From an uncultured Ruminococcus sp. (GTDB taxonomy: Bacteria; Bacillota; Clostridia; Oscillospirales; Ruminococcaceae), in NCBI GenBank assembly GCA_945868475.1, contig CAMBLM010000008.1:1-64000 (forward strand): a stretch of 64,000 nucleotides of DNA. Reading direction: 5' to 3'. The notes under the pieces are model-generated. The model saw only the letters and a program-made list of their open reading frames with translations, ran no database searches and was not told the DNA's origin. A program made the translations under genes and the position numbers. Positions 2,084 to 62,368 of the stretch are shown here, one piece after another; position 1 is the stretch's first letter, and every line of letters starts with the position of its first letter.

Positions 2084-2199
2084 TACTAAACACCATTTAA
2101 AATTCGAAAAAAATCAAGTCGATGATCTCGCGGCTGTTTTTAACAGATTTATATTGGATTTCGGCGCAGATTTTTCCTGTATTTTATTGGTTTTTAGTA
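2084..2199. mobile_element. TACTAA-type palindromic element, copy 1
   Basis: 116 bp that starts TACTAAACACCAT and ends ATTGGTTTTTAGTA, so the ends are inverted repeats. It is flanked by TTA on both sides (2081-2083 and 2200-2202), read as a target duplication. It lies just upstream of spmA and between spmA and the abrB promoter. It has no coding capacity. Confidence 0.75.
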
Positions 2200-4865: not shown

Positions 4866-4910
4866 ATAAAAAAATAAGGCAATGCAGCCTTGAACTACTG
4901 CATTGCCTTA
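4866..4910 (-). terminator. Terminator between the GH5 end and araC-like gene
   Basis: A perfect 13-bp stem (TAAGGCAATGCAG) with a 10-base loop, followed on the minus strand by TTATTTTTTTAT. It should end transcripts arriving from the glycosidase operon. Confidence 0.85.
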
Positions 4911-4968
4911 ATTATAACACAAACTGAACTTTTGTGCAACTATAAGTTACAAATCGTGCCTTATTTTA

Positions 4969-5246
4969 TACTAAACCAATTAAAAACTATACAAAAAATC
5001 GGGCATAATCTTGTAGCTGTTTCAACAGCTTTATATGGATCATGCGACGATTTTTTGTCTATAGTTTTTTTGGTGTTTAGAACCTGTCTTCATAAGAAAT
5101 GTGTGCGGATTTTCGAGCATAATTTTGTTGCAGAGTAGGCAAAAATCCGCAGGCGGGCTTTCGCCCGGCAAGGATTTTTAACGCAGTCTGCGGCAAAATT
5201 TGCCGAAAAGACGTGCGCATATGCTTGTGAAGACGGGTTCTTAGTA
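4969..5246. mobile_element. TACTAA-type palindromic element, copy 2, interrupted
   Basis: Its left part spans 4969-5079 (TACTAAACCAATT to TTGGTGTTTA) and its last three bases (GTA) are at 5244-5246. A 161-bp element of another family plus a TTA duplication interrupts it. The outer flanks are TTA at 4966-4968 and TTA at 5247-5249. The right-hand TTA is also the stop codon of the minus-strand GH5 gene. Subterminal CTATAG and ACAAAAAATC motifs are shared with other copies. Confidence 0.75.
5080..5240. mobile_element. 161-bp GAACC element, copy A
   Basis: Begins GAACCTGTCTTCATAAG and ends CTTGTGAAGACGGGTTC, imperfect terminal inverted repeats (15 of 17). It is flanked by TTA at 5077-5079 and 5241-5243. 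No base difference is seen from 14800-14960. It lies inside the right end of a TACTAA element. It has no transposase gene; the longest open stretch is about 18 codons. Confidence 0.82.
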
Positions 5247-6416
5247 TTATTTGCTTTCGGCATTATCTTTGAGCGAACGGATAAGCTCTCTGTCGGACTC
5301 ATAGATTATCTCGCACTTTATCCTTGAATAGAAGTTCTGGTTTACGTCCCAGAGAACAGGAATGAAACCATATTCATTCATCATATCATACATTATTCCA
5401 AGGCACTCGGTGGAATCGGTATGCTCTGCATTTTCAGCAAAGCGGTCTTTGCTGTAGATAGATGTACATTCGCCGACAAAGACCTGAATGCCCTTATCTG
5501 TGAAAGCCTTTTTGAGAAGCTCACACTGCGCTCTGCTGTAGTCGAGCCATTCCTTGCCGCCGATCTTGTTCGTCCAGTACATTGCGTTGTCGATATAGTG
5601 AACGGAAACCATGATCCTGTCGGAAACGGTATCTTTCGGGATAACGAATCTGCTGTCGGTCGTGAGATCGATATTTGTCCAGTAGCCCGAAACGATCAAC
5701 ATTCTGTTCTTGTTGTTGCCGCCTGTTTTGCGGACAGTATCAACGAAGATCTGATTCATTTCGTTCACATATTCAAACTTTTCATCATCGGTGAAATTGT
5801 CGCTCTCACGGACAGTTCCGAGGTTTTCATTATAGCCCTCAAAAATAAGATAGTCGGAGAAGTTTTTATAGTGTTCTGCGATCTGCTTCCAGATCTTCTG
5901 CATAATTTTAAGTGCTTCGTCTTTGCTGTAATTCTTGATGATATATTCATCATAGTGATGAACGTTTATAACAACATAAAGGTCGGCACTGCGGGCATAT
6001 TCGATTATCTCGTCAACTCTCTTGAACCAGCTCTCGTTGATAGTGAACTTGCCGTCCTCAGCCATCATATTTCCCCAGTAAACAGGGATACGAACTGTGT
6101 CGAAGCCCTCGCTCTTCATTCCTGCGATGCACTCCTGCGTAGTAGAAATTGCACCCCAGCAAGTTTCATAGTTCTTCGGCGTATTTTCGCCGATAACGGA
6201 AGCTCCCGAGCATTTGCGTGTATCTGCAGCCCAGTAGGCTTCCATTGTGTTGCCGAGGTTGATGCCCATTCCCATATCCTTTGCAAACTCTGCGGAAGTC
6301 ATATCCTTGCGCATTTCGCCGCTGTCCGAACCTGTATCGGCTGATTTTGCACACGCTGAAAATGCAAGGCAGACCATAACTATAAGTGCCATAAATACGC
6401 TTGTTATTTTTTTCAT
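5247..6416 (-). CDS. GH5 family endoglucanase-like lipoprotein
   Basis: 389 residues. A lipoprotein signal is present (basic start, hydrophobic run, lipobox FSAC near residue 21), so the enzyme is tethered outside the membrane. The GH5 core begins 'GMGINLGNTMEA' and has 'GFDTVRIPVYWGNMM', 'VINVHHYDEYI', the acid/base motif 'FEGYNENLG' and nucleophile motif 'VFVGECTS'. GH5 enzymes cut beta-1,4 glucans, mannans or xyloglucan; the exact substrate cannot be told. It is the last gene of the glycosidase operon, 16 bases after the GH43 gene, with GGAGGGTG before the ATG. A close paralogue lies at 61045-62232. Its TAA stop is the target duplication of a TACTAA element. Confidence 0.88.
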   Translation of the reverse strand: MKKITSVFMALIVMVCLAFSACAKSADTGSDSGEMRKDMTSAEFAKDMGMGINLGNTMEAYWAADTRKCSGASVIGENTPKNYETCWGAISTTQECIAGMKSEGFDTVRIPVYWGNMMAEDGKFTINESWFKRVDEIIEYARSADLYVVINVHHYDEYIIKNYSKDEALKIMQKIWKQIAEHYKNFSDYLIFEGYNENLGTVRESDNFTDDEKFEYVNEMNQIFVDTVRKTGGNNKNRMLIVSGYWTNIDLTTDSRFVIPKDTVSDRIMVSVHYIDNAMYWTNKIGGKEWLDYSRAQCELLKKAFTDKGIQVFVGECTSIYSKDRFAENAEHTDSTECLGIMYDMMNEYGFIPVLWDVNQNFYSRIKCEIIYESDRELIRSLKDNAESK

Positions 6417-14384: not shown

Positions 14385-14858
14385 ATGATAATTAAAGCTT
14401 ATGAAAAGCTTCCCGAAGAAGCGCATTATATCCGTCAGACGGTTTTCGTTGAGGAACAGGGATTCAGGGAAGAATTCGATACTCTTGACAATACAGCCGT
14501 TCACGCTGTCGGTTTTATTGACGGCTCTCCTGTTGCAACGGGAAGAATTTTTCCTGCAGAGGAGAACGGCGCATACTATCTCGGCAGGCTTGCCGTACTG
14601 AAAAATTTCCGCAAAAACGGAACAGGCAGCAAAATGCTTGTTTTTCTTGAAAGCGAAGCCGCAAAACGGGGCGCATCAAAGATAATTCTCCACGCCCAGA
14701 TACAAGCGCAGCCGTTCTACGAAAAGAACAGCTACATTGCAGAGGGTGAACCGTTTCTTGAAGGATCAGCGCCCCATATCACGATGATGAAAAAGCTTAG
14801 AACCTGTCTTCATAAGAAATGTGTGCGGATTTTCGAGCATAATTTTGTTGCAGAGTAG
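14385..14858 (+). CDS. GNAT family acetyltransferase with element-derived C-terminus
   Basis: 157 residues from the ATG at 14385, preceded by GAGGT. The GNAT core is present: 'IRQTVFVEEQGF' near the start, 'LGRLAVLKNFRKNGTGSKML' (acetyl-CoA loop R-x2-G-x-G type) and 'ILHAQIQAQPFYEKNSY'. The substrate is unknown. The last 18 residues come from the 161-bp element inserted at 14800. Removing the element and one TTA copy gives CTT-AGA-TAA, so the parent protein would have ended at '...MMKKLR'. Confidence 0.83.
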   Translation: MIIKAYEKLPEEAHYIRQTVFVEEQGFREEFDTLDNTAVHAVGFIDGSPVATGRIFPAEENGAYYLGRLAVLKNFRKNGTGSKMLVFLESEAAKRGASKIILHAQIQAQPFYEKNSYIAEGEPFLEGSAPHITMMKKLRTCLHKKCVRIFEHNFVAE

Positions 14859-14960
14859 GCAAAAATCCGCAGGCGGGCTTTCGCCCGGCAAGGATTTTTA
14901 ACGCAGTCTGCGGCAAAATTTGCCGAAAAGACGTGCGCATATGCTTGTGAAGACGGGTTC
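14800..14960. mobile_element. 161-bp GAACC element, copy B
   Basis: Same sequence as 5080-5240, with terminal repeats GAACCTGTCTTCATAAG and CTTGTGAAGACGGGTTC and TTA on each side (14797-14799, 14961-14963). It entered the end of the GNAT gene. Confidence 0.85.
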
Positions 14961-23960: not shown

Positions 23961-24902
23961 ATGTCATTTGACAGACTTATTGCAAAGATCATCGAAACGG
24001 GCAACCCTACCGTTGTAGGACTTGACCCTAAGCTTGATTATGTTCCCGAATTCATCAAGAAAAAGGCTTTCGAGGAAAAGGGCGCTGACCTTAAAGGCGC
24101 GGCAAAGGCTATCCTTGAATTCAACAAGGCTATCATTGATGAAATTTATGACATCGTTCCTGCAATAAAGCCGCAGGCAGCTTACTACGAAATGTACGGC
24201 TGGCAGGGTGTTAAAACGCTTTACAAAACAATTGAATACGCACAGAGCAAAGGTATGTTTGTCATGGTTGACGGCAAGAGAAACGATATTGGTGCAACAA
24301 TGGAAGCTTACACGAACGCTTACCTCGGCAGCACGGAAGTTAACGGAGTAAAGTTTGAGGGTTTCGGTGCTGATGCACTCACGGTAAACGGTTATCTCGG
24401 AACGGACGGCATCGCGCCCCTTACAAAGGTTTGCGCAGAGAATGACAAGGGTATCTTTGTTCTTGTCAAGACCTCCAACAAGTCCTCGGGTGAGCTTCAG
24501 GACAGGATTCTTGACGACGGCAAGACCATTTACAACACAATGGGCGAAATGTGTGAAGAATGGGGCAAGGACACAATCGGCAAGTACGGTTACTCCGCAG
24601 TCGGCGCAGTTGTCGGCGCAACATATCCCGAGCAGCTTGCTGAGATGAGAGCAAAGCTTCCGCACACATTCTTCCTCGTTCCCGGCTACGGCGCACAAGG
24701 CGGCGGTGCAGAGGGCGTTGCAAAGGCTTTCGATGAAAAGGGTCTTGGTGCTATCGTAAACTCTTCAAGAGCTGTTATGACTGCTTACAAGAAAGAGGGC
24801 TGTGACGAAAAGGACTTCGCCAAGGCTGCAAGAAGAGAATGTATCCGCATGAGAGAGGACATCACCTCGTTCGTTACTGCACTAAATACTAAACACCAAT
24901 AA
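23961..24902 (+). CDS. pyrF: Orotidine-5'-phosphate decarboxylase, long type
   Basis: 313 residues, the longer PyrF type common in clostridia. 'VVGLDPKLDYVP' opens the barrel and the catalytic 'VDGKRNDIGAT' (Lys-Asp) is intact. It makes UMP from OMP. The ATG at 23961 has AAGGAG upstream. The last five residues (NTKHQ) and the TAA stop are encoded inside a TACTAA palindromic element, so the natural C-terminus has been replaced. Confidence 0.94.
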   Translation: MSFDRLIAKIIETGNPTVVGLDPKLDYVPEFIKKKAFEEKGADLKGAAKAILEFNKAIIDEIYDIVPAIKPQAAYYEMYGWQGVKTLYKTIEYAQSKGMFVMVDGKRNDIGATMEAYTNAYLGSTEVNGVKFEGFGADALTVNGYLGTDGIAPLTKVCAENDKGIFVLVKTSNKSSGELQDRILDDGKTIYNTMGEMCEEWGKDTIGKYGYSAVGAVVGATYPEQLAEMRAKLPHTFFLVPGYGAQGGGAEGVAKAFDEKGLGAIVNSSRAVMTAYKKEGCDEKDFAKAARRECIRMREDITSFVTALNTKHQ

Positions 24903-24986
24903 AACTATAGACAAAAAATCTGTGCAAAAACCATATATTAAAGTTTTTGCTTGATTTTTTGTATAGTTTTTAATTGGTCTTTAGTA
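24887..24986. mobile_element. TACTAA-type palindromic element, copy 3
   Basis: 100 bp from TACTAAACACCAATAAAACTA to TTAATTGGTCTTTAGTA-type end. It supplies the pyrF stop codon. The flanks are AAA and TCA, so the duplication is no longer visible. Subterminal motif CTATAGACAAAAAATC is present. Confidence 0.68.
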
Positions 24987-29607: not shown

Positions 29608-30516
29608 ATGAGCTGGGACGAAAAGCTTGACTCGACTTTTTTTAGAGATCAGAACTTCGACATAAACGGCGAGCGTATGCGCGTTGCACTTCGCGGATTC
29701 AAAATTTCGCTTATCTATGAGCTTATCAGCAGCGCGGCGATGATGTATTTATCGTTTCTTATGGTTCTTTATAAGTCTGCATCCGTCATTTCCAACTCAA
29801 TTGCGGGAAATATTCTCGACACGATAAACGAAGCTATCATCGATACGGGAAAAAGCATTTCAAGTGTTGCTTACGAAACAAGCGGATGGCTTATAACATT
29901 TCCCCTTGCATTGCTGACGATCATCTTTTCGCTTCTCGGGAACACATTTCATATGAAATTTGCTCCGAAAGTAATGGCTGTCATCTATCCTGCGCATCTT
30001 ATACTCGGAATTCTCGCAGGATTTGGACTTTTTGACGATATGAACGGCTTCTGGGCGGTCATGCTCATGATTTACGCCCTTGCAGGCTTCTGGATAAATG
30101 ATTTTACGGCGCGTGGACTGAAAGAGCTTGATTATCTTGTAACTCAGGAGGGTTTTCCGACATTCAACCTTGCTATCTTCTATTTTCGACGCTCGCATTA
30201 TGCGAAAATGCGTGAAAAATGGCTTGCGGAACACCCCGAGCAAAAGGCAGCTCCGAAACTTGAAACCGAAGAAAAGCGACTGGAAATGCTTAATATAACG
30301 GCGGAAAAAGAACAGCTCGGCGTTATCCCGAACATTCGGGTAACGGCTGATTCTGCGGAAAAATGGCTCGAACAGAACAAGCTTGAAACCGACAAGAAGC
30401 AAAGCGACAGCGTTAAGGAAAACGCGATGGACGACCTTTCGACCGATGATCTCATTCTCCCGGATACAGATGAATATTACGCCAAAAGCATAGAGCCGAA
30501 AGTAAAAAGGCATTAA
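29608..30516 (+). CDS. Uncharacterised membrane protein within the pyr cluster
   Basis: 302 residues. Four or five membrane segments occupy residues 30-170 ('LISSAAMMYLSFLMVLY', 'WLITFPLALLTIIFSLLG', 'VIYPAHLILGILAGFG'), then a charged cytoplasmic tail of about 120 residues. I do not recognise a family. Ribosome site GGAGGG precedes the ATG. It separates carB from pyrK. Its TAA stop codon is the left target duplication of a TACTGA element. Confidence 0.72.
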   Translation: MSWDEKLDSTFFRDQNFDINGERMRVALRGFKISLIYELISSAAMMYLSFLMVLYKSASVISNSIAGNILDTINEAIIDTGKSISSVAYETSGWLITFPLALLTIIFSLLGNTFHMKFAPKVMAVIYPAHLILGILAGFGLFDDMNGFWAVMLMIYALAGFWINDFTARGLKELDYLVTQEGFPTFNLAIFYFRRSHYAKMREKWLAEHPEQKAAPKLETEEKRLEMLNITAEKEQLGVIPNIRVTADSAEKWLEQNKLETDKKQSDSVKENAMDDLSTDDLILPDTDEYYAKSIEPKVKRH

Positions 30517-30647
30517 TACTGATCTATAATGAATGTATAGACAAAAATCGTTGCAAGATCCATTTAAAGCTGTTTTCAACATCAACCTGTTTTCAACAGC
30601 TTCAGCTTTCGCTTGATTTTTGTACACATTCCGATCAGATATTAGTA
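30517..30647. mobile_element. TACTGA/TTAGTA palindromic element, copy 4
   Basis: 131 bp, from TACTGATCTATAATGAATG to GATCAGATATTAGTA. Flanks are TAA at 30514-30516 (the stop codon of the membrane protein) and TAA at 30648-30650. The right edge abuts the pyrK ribosome site GGAGG. It is a subfamily with GATC and AATGT in its ends. Confidence 0.75.
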
Positions 30648-40923: not shown

Positions 40924-42923
40924 TATTCGCACTTGCGGGAAACCAGAACTGCGGCAAGACAACGCTCTTCAACCAGCTCACGGGTTCAAATCAGCATGTC
41001 GGAAACTTTCCGGGCGTTACCGTTGACAGCAAATCAGGCAGCGTTCGCGGACTAAAAAACTGCGAGGTCGTCGATCTCCCCGGTATTTACTCGATCAGAC
41101 CTTACACGAATGAGGAAATAGTCACCCGTGATTTTCTCATTGAACAGAAGCCGAACGCGATAATCAACATTGTTGACGCAACGAATATCGAACGAAACCT
41201 TTATCTCACACTCCAGCTTCTCGAAATGAACATTCCGACAGTGCTTGCTCTGAATATGATGGACGAAGTGCGAAACAACGGTGGAACGATCGATGTTGAA
41301 AAACTTTCGGCAAATCTCGGTATTCCCGTTGTTGCGATAAGCGCAGCCAAGAACGAGGGCGTTGACGAACTTATACAGACCGTTTACGAAACAGCTGTAA
41401 AGAAGCTTCTACCGACAAAGAAAGACTTTTGCAGCGGCGCAGTCCACCGCTGTATCCACGCTGTCACGCATCTTATCGAAGACCACGCCGCTGCTGCGGA
41501 GATCTCTCCCCGTTTTGCTGCGACCAAACTTGTCGAGCAAGACCCTTACATAATCGAAAAGCTTCGCATAAACGAAAATGAGCGCGATATGATCGAACAC
41601 AGCGTTTCCGAAATGGAATCGGAAACAGGACTTGACCGTAATGCCGCTCTTGCCGATATGCGCTACACCTTTATCGAAAAAGCCTGCGCGGACACGGTCG
41701 TAAAATGTCACGAAAGCAAGGAACACGCACGGAGCGTAAAGATAGATAAAGTCCTCACGGGAAAATACCTCGCTATCCCCGTTTTCATCATCATTATGCT
41801 GCTCATCTTCTGGCTGACGTTCGATGTCATCGGCTCATTTTTGAGCGACCTTTTAAGCCTTGGCATAGATAAAGTAACAAGCGTTGTTGACACTGCTCTG
41901 ACGGCTTATGGACTTAATCCCGTTGTACACAGCCTTGTTATCGACGGTATTTTCTCGGGTGTTGGCAGCGTTCTCAGCTTCCTGCCGATAATCGTTGTGC
42001 TGTTCTTCTTCCTCTCGATGCTCGAGGACAGCGGATATATGGCACGCGTTGCGTTCGTTATGGATAAGCTTCTGAGAAAGATCGGTCTTTCGGGACGTTC
42101 GTTCGTACCGATGCTGATAGGCTTCGGATGCAGTGTTCCTGCGATAATGGCAACAAGAACGCTTTCCTCAGAGCGCGACCGCAAAATGACGATATACCTC
42201 ACCCCGTTTATGAGCTGCAGTGCCAAGCTGCCTATCTACGCAGTTTTCACACAGGCTTTCTTCGTTAAATACAAAGCACTTGTAATGATATCGCTTTATG
42301 TCGGCGGAATAATCGTAGGAATTCTCTGCGGACTTATTATGAACAAGACACTTTTCAGAGGAAATCCCGTTCCGTTCGTAATGGAGCTGCCAAACTACCG
42401 TCTGCCTTCGCCGAAAAGCGTTGGCATGCTGATGTGGGAAAAGGCAAAGGATTTCCTGCAGAAAGCATTCACCGTTATTTTCGTTGCGACCATTATAATT
42501 TGGTTCTTCCAGACATTCGACCTCAAATTCAATGTTGTTTCCGACAGTTCTGACAGCATTCTCGCCGCGATAGGAATGTTGATAGCACCGATACTCAAAC
42601 CGCTCGGCTTCGGCGACTGGAGAGTTTCGACTGCCCTTATTTCAGGCTTCACGGCAAAGGAATCGGTGGTTTCAACGCTTGCCGTTCTCACGGGTTCAAA
42701 CATTTCAAACCTCAGTGAAGTTCTCGGAACGGTATTTACGCCTCTCACTGCTGTAAGCTTTTTAGCCTTTACACTTCTTTACACACCATGCGTTGCCGCA
42801 ATTGCAGCGGCAAAACGCGAACTCGGAAGCGGTCGGGCAGCATTCGCGCTCTGTTTGTTCCAGTGCTGCATGGCTTGGGCCGTTTCGTTCGCGGTTTATA
42901 ACATAGGAAGTTTATTGGTATAA
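40920..42923 (+). CDS. feoB: Ferrous iron transporter FeoB
   Basis: 667 residues. N-terminal G domain: G1 'GNQNCGKTTLFNQLTG', G3 'DLPGIYS', G4 'LNMMD'; then the helical spacer and the C-terminal membrane part with Gate motifs ('GFGCSVPAIMATRTL', 'YTPCVAAIAAAKRELG'). It takes up Fe(II) under anaerobic conditions. Coupled to feoA and followed by a small Cys-rich partner. Confidence 0.96.
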   Translation: MIFALAGNQNCGKTTLFNQLTGSNQHVGNFPGVTVDSKSGSVRGLKNCEVVDLPGIYSIRPYTNEEIVTRDFLIEQKPNAIINIVDATNIERNLYLTLQLLEMNIPTVLALNMMDEVRNNGGTIDVEKLSANLGIPVVAISAAKNEGVDELIQTVYETAVKKLLPTKKDFCSGAVHRCIHAVTHLIEDHAAAAEISPRFAATKLVEQDPYIIEKLRINENERDMIEHSVSEMESETGLDRNAALADMRYTFIEKACADTVVKCHESKEHARSVKIDKVLTGKYLAIPVFIIIMLLIFWLTFDVIGSFLSDLLSLGIDKVTSVVDTALTAYGLNPVVHSLVIDGIFSGVGSVLSFLPIIVVLFFFLSMLEDSGYMARVAFVMDKLLRKIGLSGRSFVPMLIGFGCSVPAIMATRTLSSERDRKMTIYLTPFMSCSAKLPIYAVFTQAFFVKYKALVMISLYVGGIIVGILCGLIMNKTLFRGNPVPFVMELPNYRLPSPKSVGMLMWEKAKDFLQKAFTVIFVATIIIWFFQTFDLKFNVVSDSSDSILAAIGMLIAPILKPLGFGDWRVSTALISGFTAKESVVSTLAVLTGSNISNLSEVLGTVFTPLTAVSFLAFTLLYTPCVAAIAAAKRELGSGRAAFALCLFQCCMAWAVSFAVYNIGSLLV

Positions 42924-54854: not shown

Positions 54855-54954
54855 TACTAAACACCAATTAAAAACTATACAAAAAATCGAGCATAATCTT
54901 GCATATATTGATTATGCGACGATTTTTTGTCTATAGTTTTATTGGTGTTTAGTA
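54855..54954. mobile_element. TACTAA-type palindromic element, copy 7
   Basis: 100 bp from TACTAAACACCAATTAAAA to TATTGGTGTTTAGTA. TTA flanks at 54852-54854 and 54955-54957. It is very close to copy 2 in sequence (both share GCATAATCTTG and GCGACGATTTTTTGTC). Confidence 0.82.
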
Positions 54955-62251: not shown

Positions 62252-62368
62252 TACTAAACACCAATAAAATACAGGAAAAAATCTGCGCCGAGATCCAATA
62301 TAAATCTGTTTTTAACAGATACAAGATTATCGGCTTGATTTTTTCCAAATTTTAAATTGTGTTTAGTA
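62252..62368. mobile_element. TACTAA-type palindromic element, copy 8
   Basis: 117 bp from TACTAAACACCAATAAAATA to AATTGTGTTTAGTA. Flanks are TGA and TAA, both TNA but not identical, suggesting an older insertion. It lies in the GH5 leader. Confidence 0.7.

Follow-up and report, generated by a model that had tools for sequence, protein, structure and literature searches.

How did two short, non-coding elements of different families come to lie one inside the other exactly at the stop codon of a glycosidase gene? The window analysed here is a stretch of 64,000 nucleotides (contig C8:1-64000) from a draft genome of 2.55 Mb in 31 contigs, and the locus in question lies at the 3' end of a gene for a GH5 glycosidase (Table 1).

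Two layers at the stop codon of the GH5 gene

A sequence-only reading of this stretch had proposed that a 161-bp GAACC element interrupts the right terminus of an element of the TACTAA family, with duplication of TTA, and that the outer TTA copy at 5247-5249 supplies the GH5 gene with its TAA stop. The split and its duplication were borne out by direct reading and by script, the second point was confirmed as well, and all the coordinates given proved exact to the base. The same reading had held that excision of the inner element on paper recreates an intact TACTAA end. This is what we observed, as the inner flanks of the GAACC copy, once joined, give ...GGTGTTTAGTA, and the outer element restored in this way, which is 114 bp long (4969-5079 plus 5244-5246) and palindromic, aligns over its full length and with few differences to two other copies (L015 and L017). 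The alignment also indicates that the outer copy is slightly decayed, because 2 bp of the left terminal repeat present in L015 and L017 are missing from it.

Table 1. Features of the composite locus and further copies of both families in the window
Feature	Position	Strand	Basis or remark
TTA, left outer target duplication	4966-4968	.	direct reading and script
TACTAA element, left 111 bp, from left terminus to inner insertion point	4969-5079	+	reading, script, alignment
TTA, left inner target duplication, also within the TACTAA terminus GTTTAGTA	5077-5079	.	
GAACC element, 161 bp, putative IS5-family-derived MITE	5080-5240	+	among 14 full copies, 11 identical
TTA, right inner target duplication	5241-5243	.	
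GTA, right end of the TACTAA element (3 bp)	5244-5246	+	reading, script, alignment
TTA, right outer duplication; read on the minus strand, stop codon TAA of the GH5 gene	5247-5249	.	
GH5 glycosidase gene, 389 aa	5247-6416	-	Pfam PF00150, E 6.8e-48
Terminator-like hairpin with T-tail, GH5 strand, beyond both elements	4875-4910	-	
Further single GAACC copy	14800-14960		
Further single TACTAA copies	2084-2199, 24887-24986, 54855-54954, 62252-62368		

The two families and the putative source of GAACC

All 14 full copies of GAACC in the genome are 161 bp long; 11 of them, including the one at the GH5 gene, are identical and the remaining three stand at 98.8-99.4%. An exact 3-bp T-N-A duplication brackets 13 of the 14 copies, within unrelated flanks (TTA in 7, TAA in 3, TGA in 2 and TCA in 1), while the exception (L044) adjoins an ISAs1-family IS and has lost the matching duplication on that side. 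That IS, at C2:250346-251599 (L137 2346-3599), lies between two GAACC copies and was considered as the parent of GAACC, but it has inverted ends of its own and was rejected. GAACC-related copies were noticed in another genus of the same family (G009, among the matches listed in relatives) and in unannotated human faecal contigs of the phage collection; a plasmid search gave no match. One human faecal contig filed as phage (MT835732.1, L324 2014-2120) carries an internally shortened GAACC copy with a TAA duplication, located in a hairpin loop. We also noticed hairpins of 39-42 bp, GAACCTGTTTTCA...TGAAAACAGGTTC, at L132 1863-1901, L135 1809-1849 and L136 1507-1548, which lack T-N-A flanks and look like either terminators or extremely short relatives of GAACC ends.

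Judged by its ends, GAACC is a MITE derived from the IS5 family, a link that is new here. In genome G219 (L180) lies an IS of 808 bp that is bounded by GAACCTGTCTTCACAAG and GAAATTGTCTTCACAAG; its two frames overlap and each matches NCBIfam IS5_3 (NF033580; 8.7e-26 and 6e-21), each half staying below the whole-protein cut-off. The left end of GAACC resembles one end of this IS and the right end the other, including the differing sub-terminal AAGAAA/AAGC. Since GAACC agrees with this IS at both ends, its mobilisation in trans by an IS5-family transposase appears most likely. Furthermore, in the sister lineage G145 the ends have altered to GTCCACATAG in the IS and equally in a 159-bp MITE, which is 71% identical to the present GAACC over its full length and lies inside that IS between copies of TCA; such joint alteration of IS and MITE ends is a good indication that the MITE is moved by the IS. 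In L181 the sister IS is bracketed by TTA. The L180 IS is flanked by AAA on both sides and not by T-N-A, which counts against this reading. Like IS and MITEs of the IS5 family, GAACC has both IS ends and 3-bp T-N-A duplications and is non-coding, short and multicopy; it differs in that its body beyond the ends is not IS sequence and in that its own genome retains no more than a broken relative of that IS.

The own genome yielded no intact IS5 source; the only relative of the 808-bp IS detected there is a broken remnant of an IS5-family transposase, with an in-frame stop, at 41175-41857 of contig C1 (L131 676-1358). Its pieces, near 41180-41858 on the minus strand, start after the end GAACTTGTCTTCACAAGA, which is itself flanked by TAA, and match PF13340, PF01609 and NCBIfam IS5_3; one of them, searched in 297 genomes of the family, was matched in 7, the own genome included. 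Two TACTAA elements, each with TTA duplications, cut this remnant, and the detected source relative of GAACC is thereby broken. When the joined flanks were aligned, both sites were found empty in the uninterrupted L180 IS, which shows that the TACTAA elements are inserted DNA. Nesting thus runs both ways, with TACTAA elements in an IS5 relative and an IS5-type MITE in a TACTAA element. On contig C12 of the own genome there is also an IS5-like element of 813 bp (L175 1473-2285) whose GAGCCTGTTGACACTA ends are each preceded by TTA and whose transposase is broken.

The end motif of the TACTAA family, TWATACTAAACACC, searched with one mismatch allowed, occurs 147 + 145 times in the 2.55 Mb as against 1 + 1 for the reversed control, amounting to 292 ends genome-wide (100 of these places were listed) or, counting two ends per copy, about 145 copies. 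A script applied to the examined loci returned 84 candidates, of which 53, mostly 100 bp long, have an exact duplication (24 TTA and 29 TAA), and the other 31, which lack a matching triplet, were set aside as they include spurious pairs and many are not elements. Lengths in the family are mostly 100 bp or 114-117 bp, and a 16-bp mini-hairpin in the loop sets the 116-bp class (e.g. window 2084-2199) apart from the 100-bp class. One 100-bp copy (54855-54954) folds end to end at -45.2 kcal/mol versus -12.0 for shuffles (z about -11). TACTAA elements have the traits of MITEs, being short and non-coding, with terminal inverted repeats, target duplication and many copies. ERIC is a palindromic intergenic MITE which duplicates TA and is not known to have a transposase; RUP is another TA-duplicating element. 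TACTAA resembles ERIC in its size of about 100-127 bp, its folding into nearly one long hairpin, its intergenic position and its many copies, but duplicates TTA/TAA where ERIC duplicates TA.

TACTAA elements would be moved by some transposase that duplicates TTA/TAA. Among 12 DDE_Tnp_1 loci of 5 genomes there was no IS-sized element with TACTAA ends, and 16 stretches around unpaired TACTAA ends contained neither an IS-sized element nor a transposase. A strict pattern for whole TACTAA elements gave 0 matches, the pattern being too strict, and the 119 stretches from all environments that TTATACTAAACACC matched in IMG/VR were judged to be due to chance. At the level of search results, no published description of the TACTAA or GAACC families was found in the literature.

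The stop codon and the GH5 transcript

It had been proposed that the first insertion kept the stop intact. The TAA is indeed preserved, but the preservation is passive. Because the inferred empty site carries the same GH5 stop and most homologues end at about this point, the kept stop is the passive result of a 3-bp TTA/TAA duplication. GH5 homologues whose 3' end lies on the contig mostly terminate within ~12 residues of this stop and have neither element there; L165 (64% identical) matches it to the residue, the tails of L158 and L194 are longer, and L160 and L161 run on. The duplication falls exactly on the stop of an ORF of at least 100 aa in 2 of the 53 TACTAA copies, or 3 of 54 with this locus, as against 37 of 482 intergenic TTA/TAA sites (7.7%) that are stops in the window. 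Enrichment of insertion at stop codons was therefore rejected, since stops simply offer TAA. For GAACC the duplication lies on a stop in 2 of 14 copies, in ORFs of only 150-153 aa. A 131-bp TACTAA-type element at window 30517-30647 has its TAA duplication exactly at the stop of ORF 29608-30516, and is a second stop-codon insertion in the window.

The place at the stop might also have been selected, the composite being kept as a stabilising or terminating 3' structure of the GH5 transcript. Downstream of the stop the GH5 strand folds into two long hairpins which are far more stable than shuffles (z -10.5) and lie between the stop and the terminator-like hairpin, and this would suit such a role. 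However, any palindromic MITE would fold in this way, the coincidence with a stop in 3 of 54 TACTAA duplications has to be set against the availability of stops given above, and GAACC copies are too young for conservation to show, so that we consider such a selected role very unlikely. The simplest view is that the composite is neutral for GH5 expression, any effect on it being conjectural.

Order of insertion and the terminal TAA site

Taken together, the locus is very probably the product of two nested insertions of non-autonomous MITEs at the GH5 stop, TACTAA first and GAACC second. In the first step, a palindromic TACTAA-family element of ~116 bp would have entered the TTA that served the GH5 gene as its TAA stop, and because 3 bp were duplicated, the end of the GH5 protein would have remained unaltered. 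Later, the 161-bp GAACC element, most likely supplied with an IS5-family transposase in trans, would have entered the TTA within the terminus GTTTAGTA of that TACTAA copy, duplicating TTA once more. We argue for two separate families arriving in this order because the duplications are nested, because GAACC copies are near-identical whereas TACTAA copies are diverged, and because single-element copies of each family are present elsewhere in the genome.

If, instead, the composite were one larger mobile unit with TACTAA ends that already carried GAACC on arrival at the GH5 stop, it would agree with the TACTAA-type ends still found on both sides and with the outer TTA duplication. The sequence-only reading, which took the locus for two families nested one in the other, had pointed out that the full composite at unrelated loci of relatives would speak for movement as one unit. 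We made this search, and the whole composite is covered by only 1 of 73 matching places in the genome, which is this locus, and by none among the matches listed in 40 relatives, while both junction sequences are absent from IMG/VR. With a single occurrence in the genome and none among those matches, the reading of sequential insertion holds; the left terminal repeat, short of 2 bp, also speaks against a mobile unit, which we regard as very unlikely. Least credible of all is an assembly error joining two repeats; that both elements are multicopy repeats in a draft of 31 contigs would allow it, but both duplications are exact, unique gene sequence flanks either side and the same terminal site is taken by other insertions in the same genome. 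No strain with the locus empty or singly occupied was found; in the nearest GH5 relative, at 83% identity, the contig runs out at residue 231 and the C-terminal part could not be located, and the phage collection holds the elements and lacks the locus.

The signature left when any element enters the TAA of a TACTAA terminus was observed at 14 places versus 1 for the control. Once four ends that belong to a different subfamily are discounted, 10 remain, this locus included. The outer arm resumes right after the duplication in 4 of the 10 (L345, L355, L357 and the present locus, L356); L351 continues into the middle of an outer element, L352 adjoins another element, an outer element is lacking at L348 and L358, and L346 and L347 are two signature hits in one place. 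TACTAA elements repeatedly nest in one another, and with at least three further cases besides this locus, nesting at the terminal TAA is recurrent; ours is the only GAACC case seen among them. Another 5 of the 53 TACTAA copies lie at the centre of another copy, the 16-bp mini-hairpin being itself a repeated target. By a rough estimate scaled from the window, if ~290 of ~19,000 intergenic TTA/TAA sites are such termini, 1-2 hits would be expected, so that the four observed would represent a mild excess and not proof of preference. A bolder and rather doubtful idea is that the hexamer TACTAA/TTAGTA acts as a self-renewing landing pad, where insertion at the internal TAA would leave the hexamer on one side and, on the other, TAA with what remains of the arm; the site would then be shared by unrelated families (IS5-type GAACC and TACTAA types), clusters would grow at old copies and not in genes, and TACTAA would also silence the transposase source of GAACC. 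The layering itself is real and is explained by the ordinary rules of such elements, and the site is not as special as a first look suggests.

Within one genome, short intergenic repeats of several families that insert into one another are described for the BOX, RUP and SPRITE elements of Streptococcus pneumoniae (PMC10969869). The nesting resembles that of TACTAA and GAACC, while the families, their ends and their duplications are unlike those seen here. In the present genome, one locus offers a clean two-layer relative date. What would be a young MITE burst can be traced to a source in the IS5 family, in a gut bacterium in whose genome one miniature family broke the detected transposase remnant of another, and the TACTAA family, with its ~145 copies and no mover found, is worth following.
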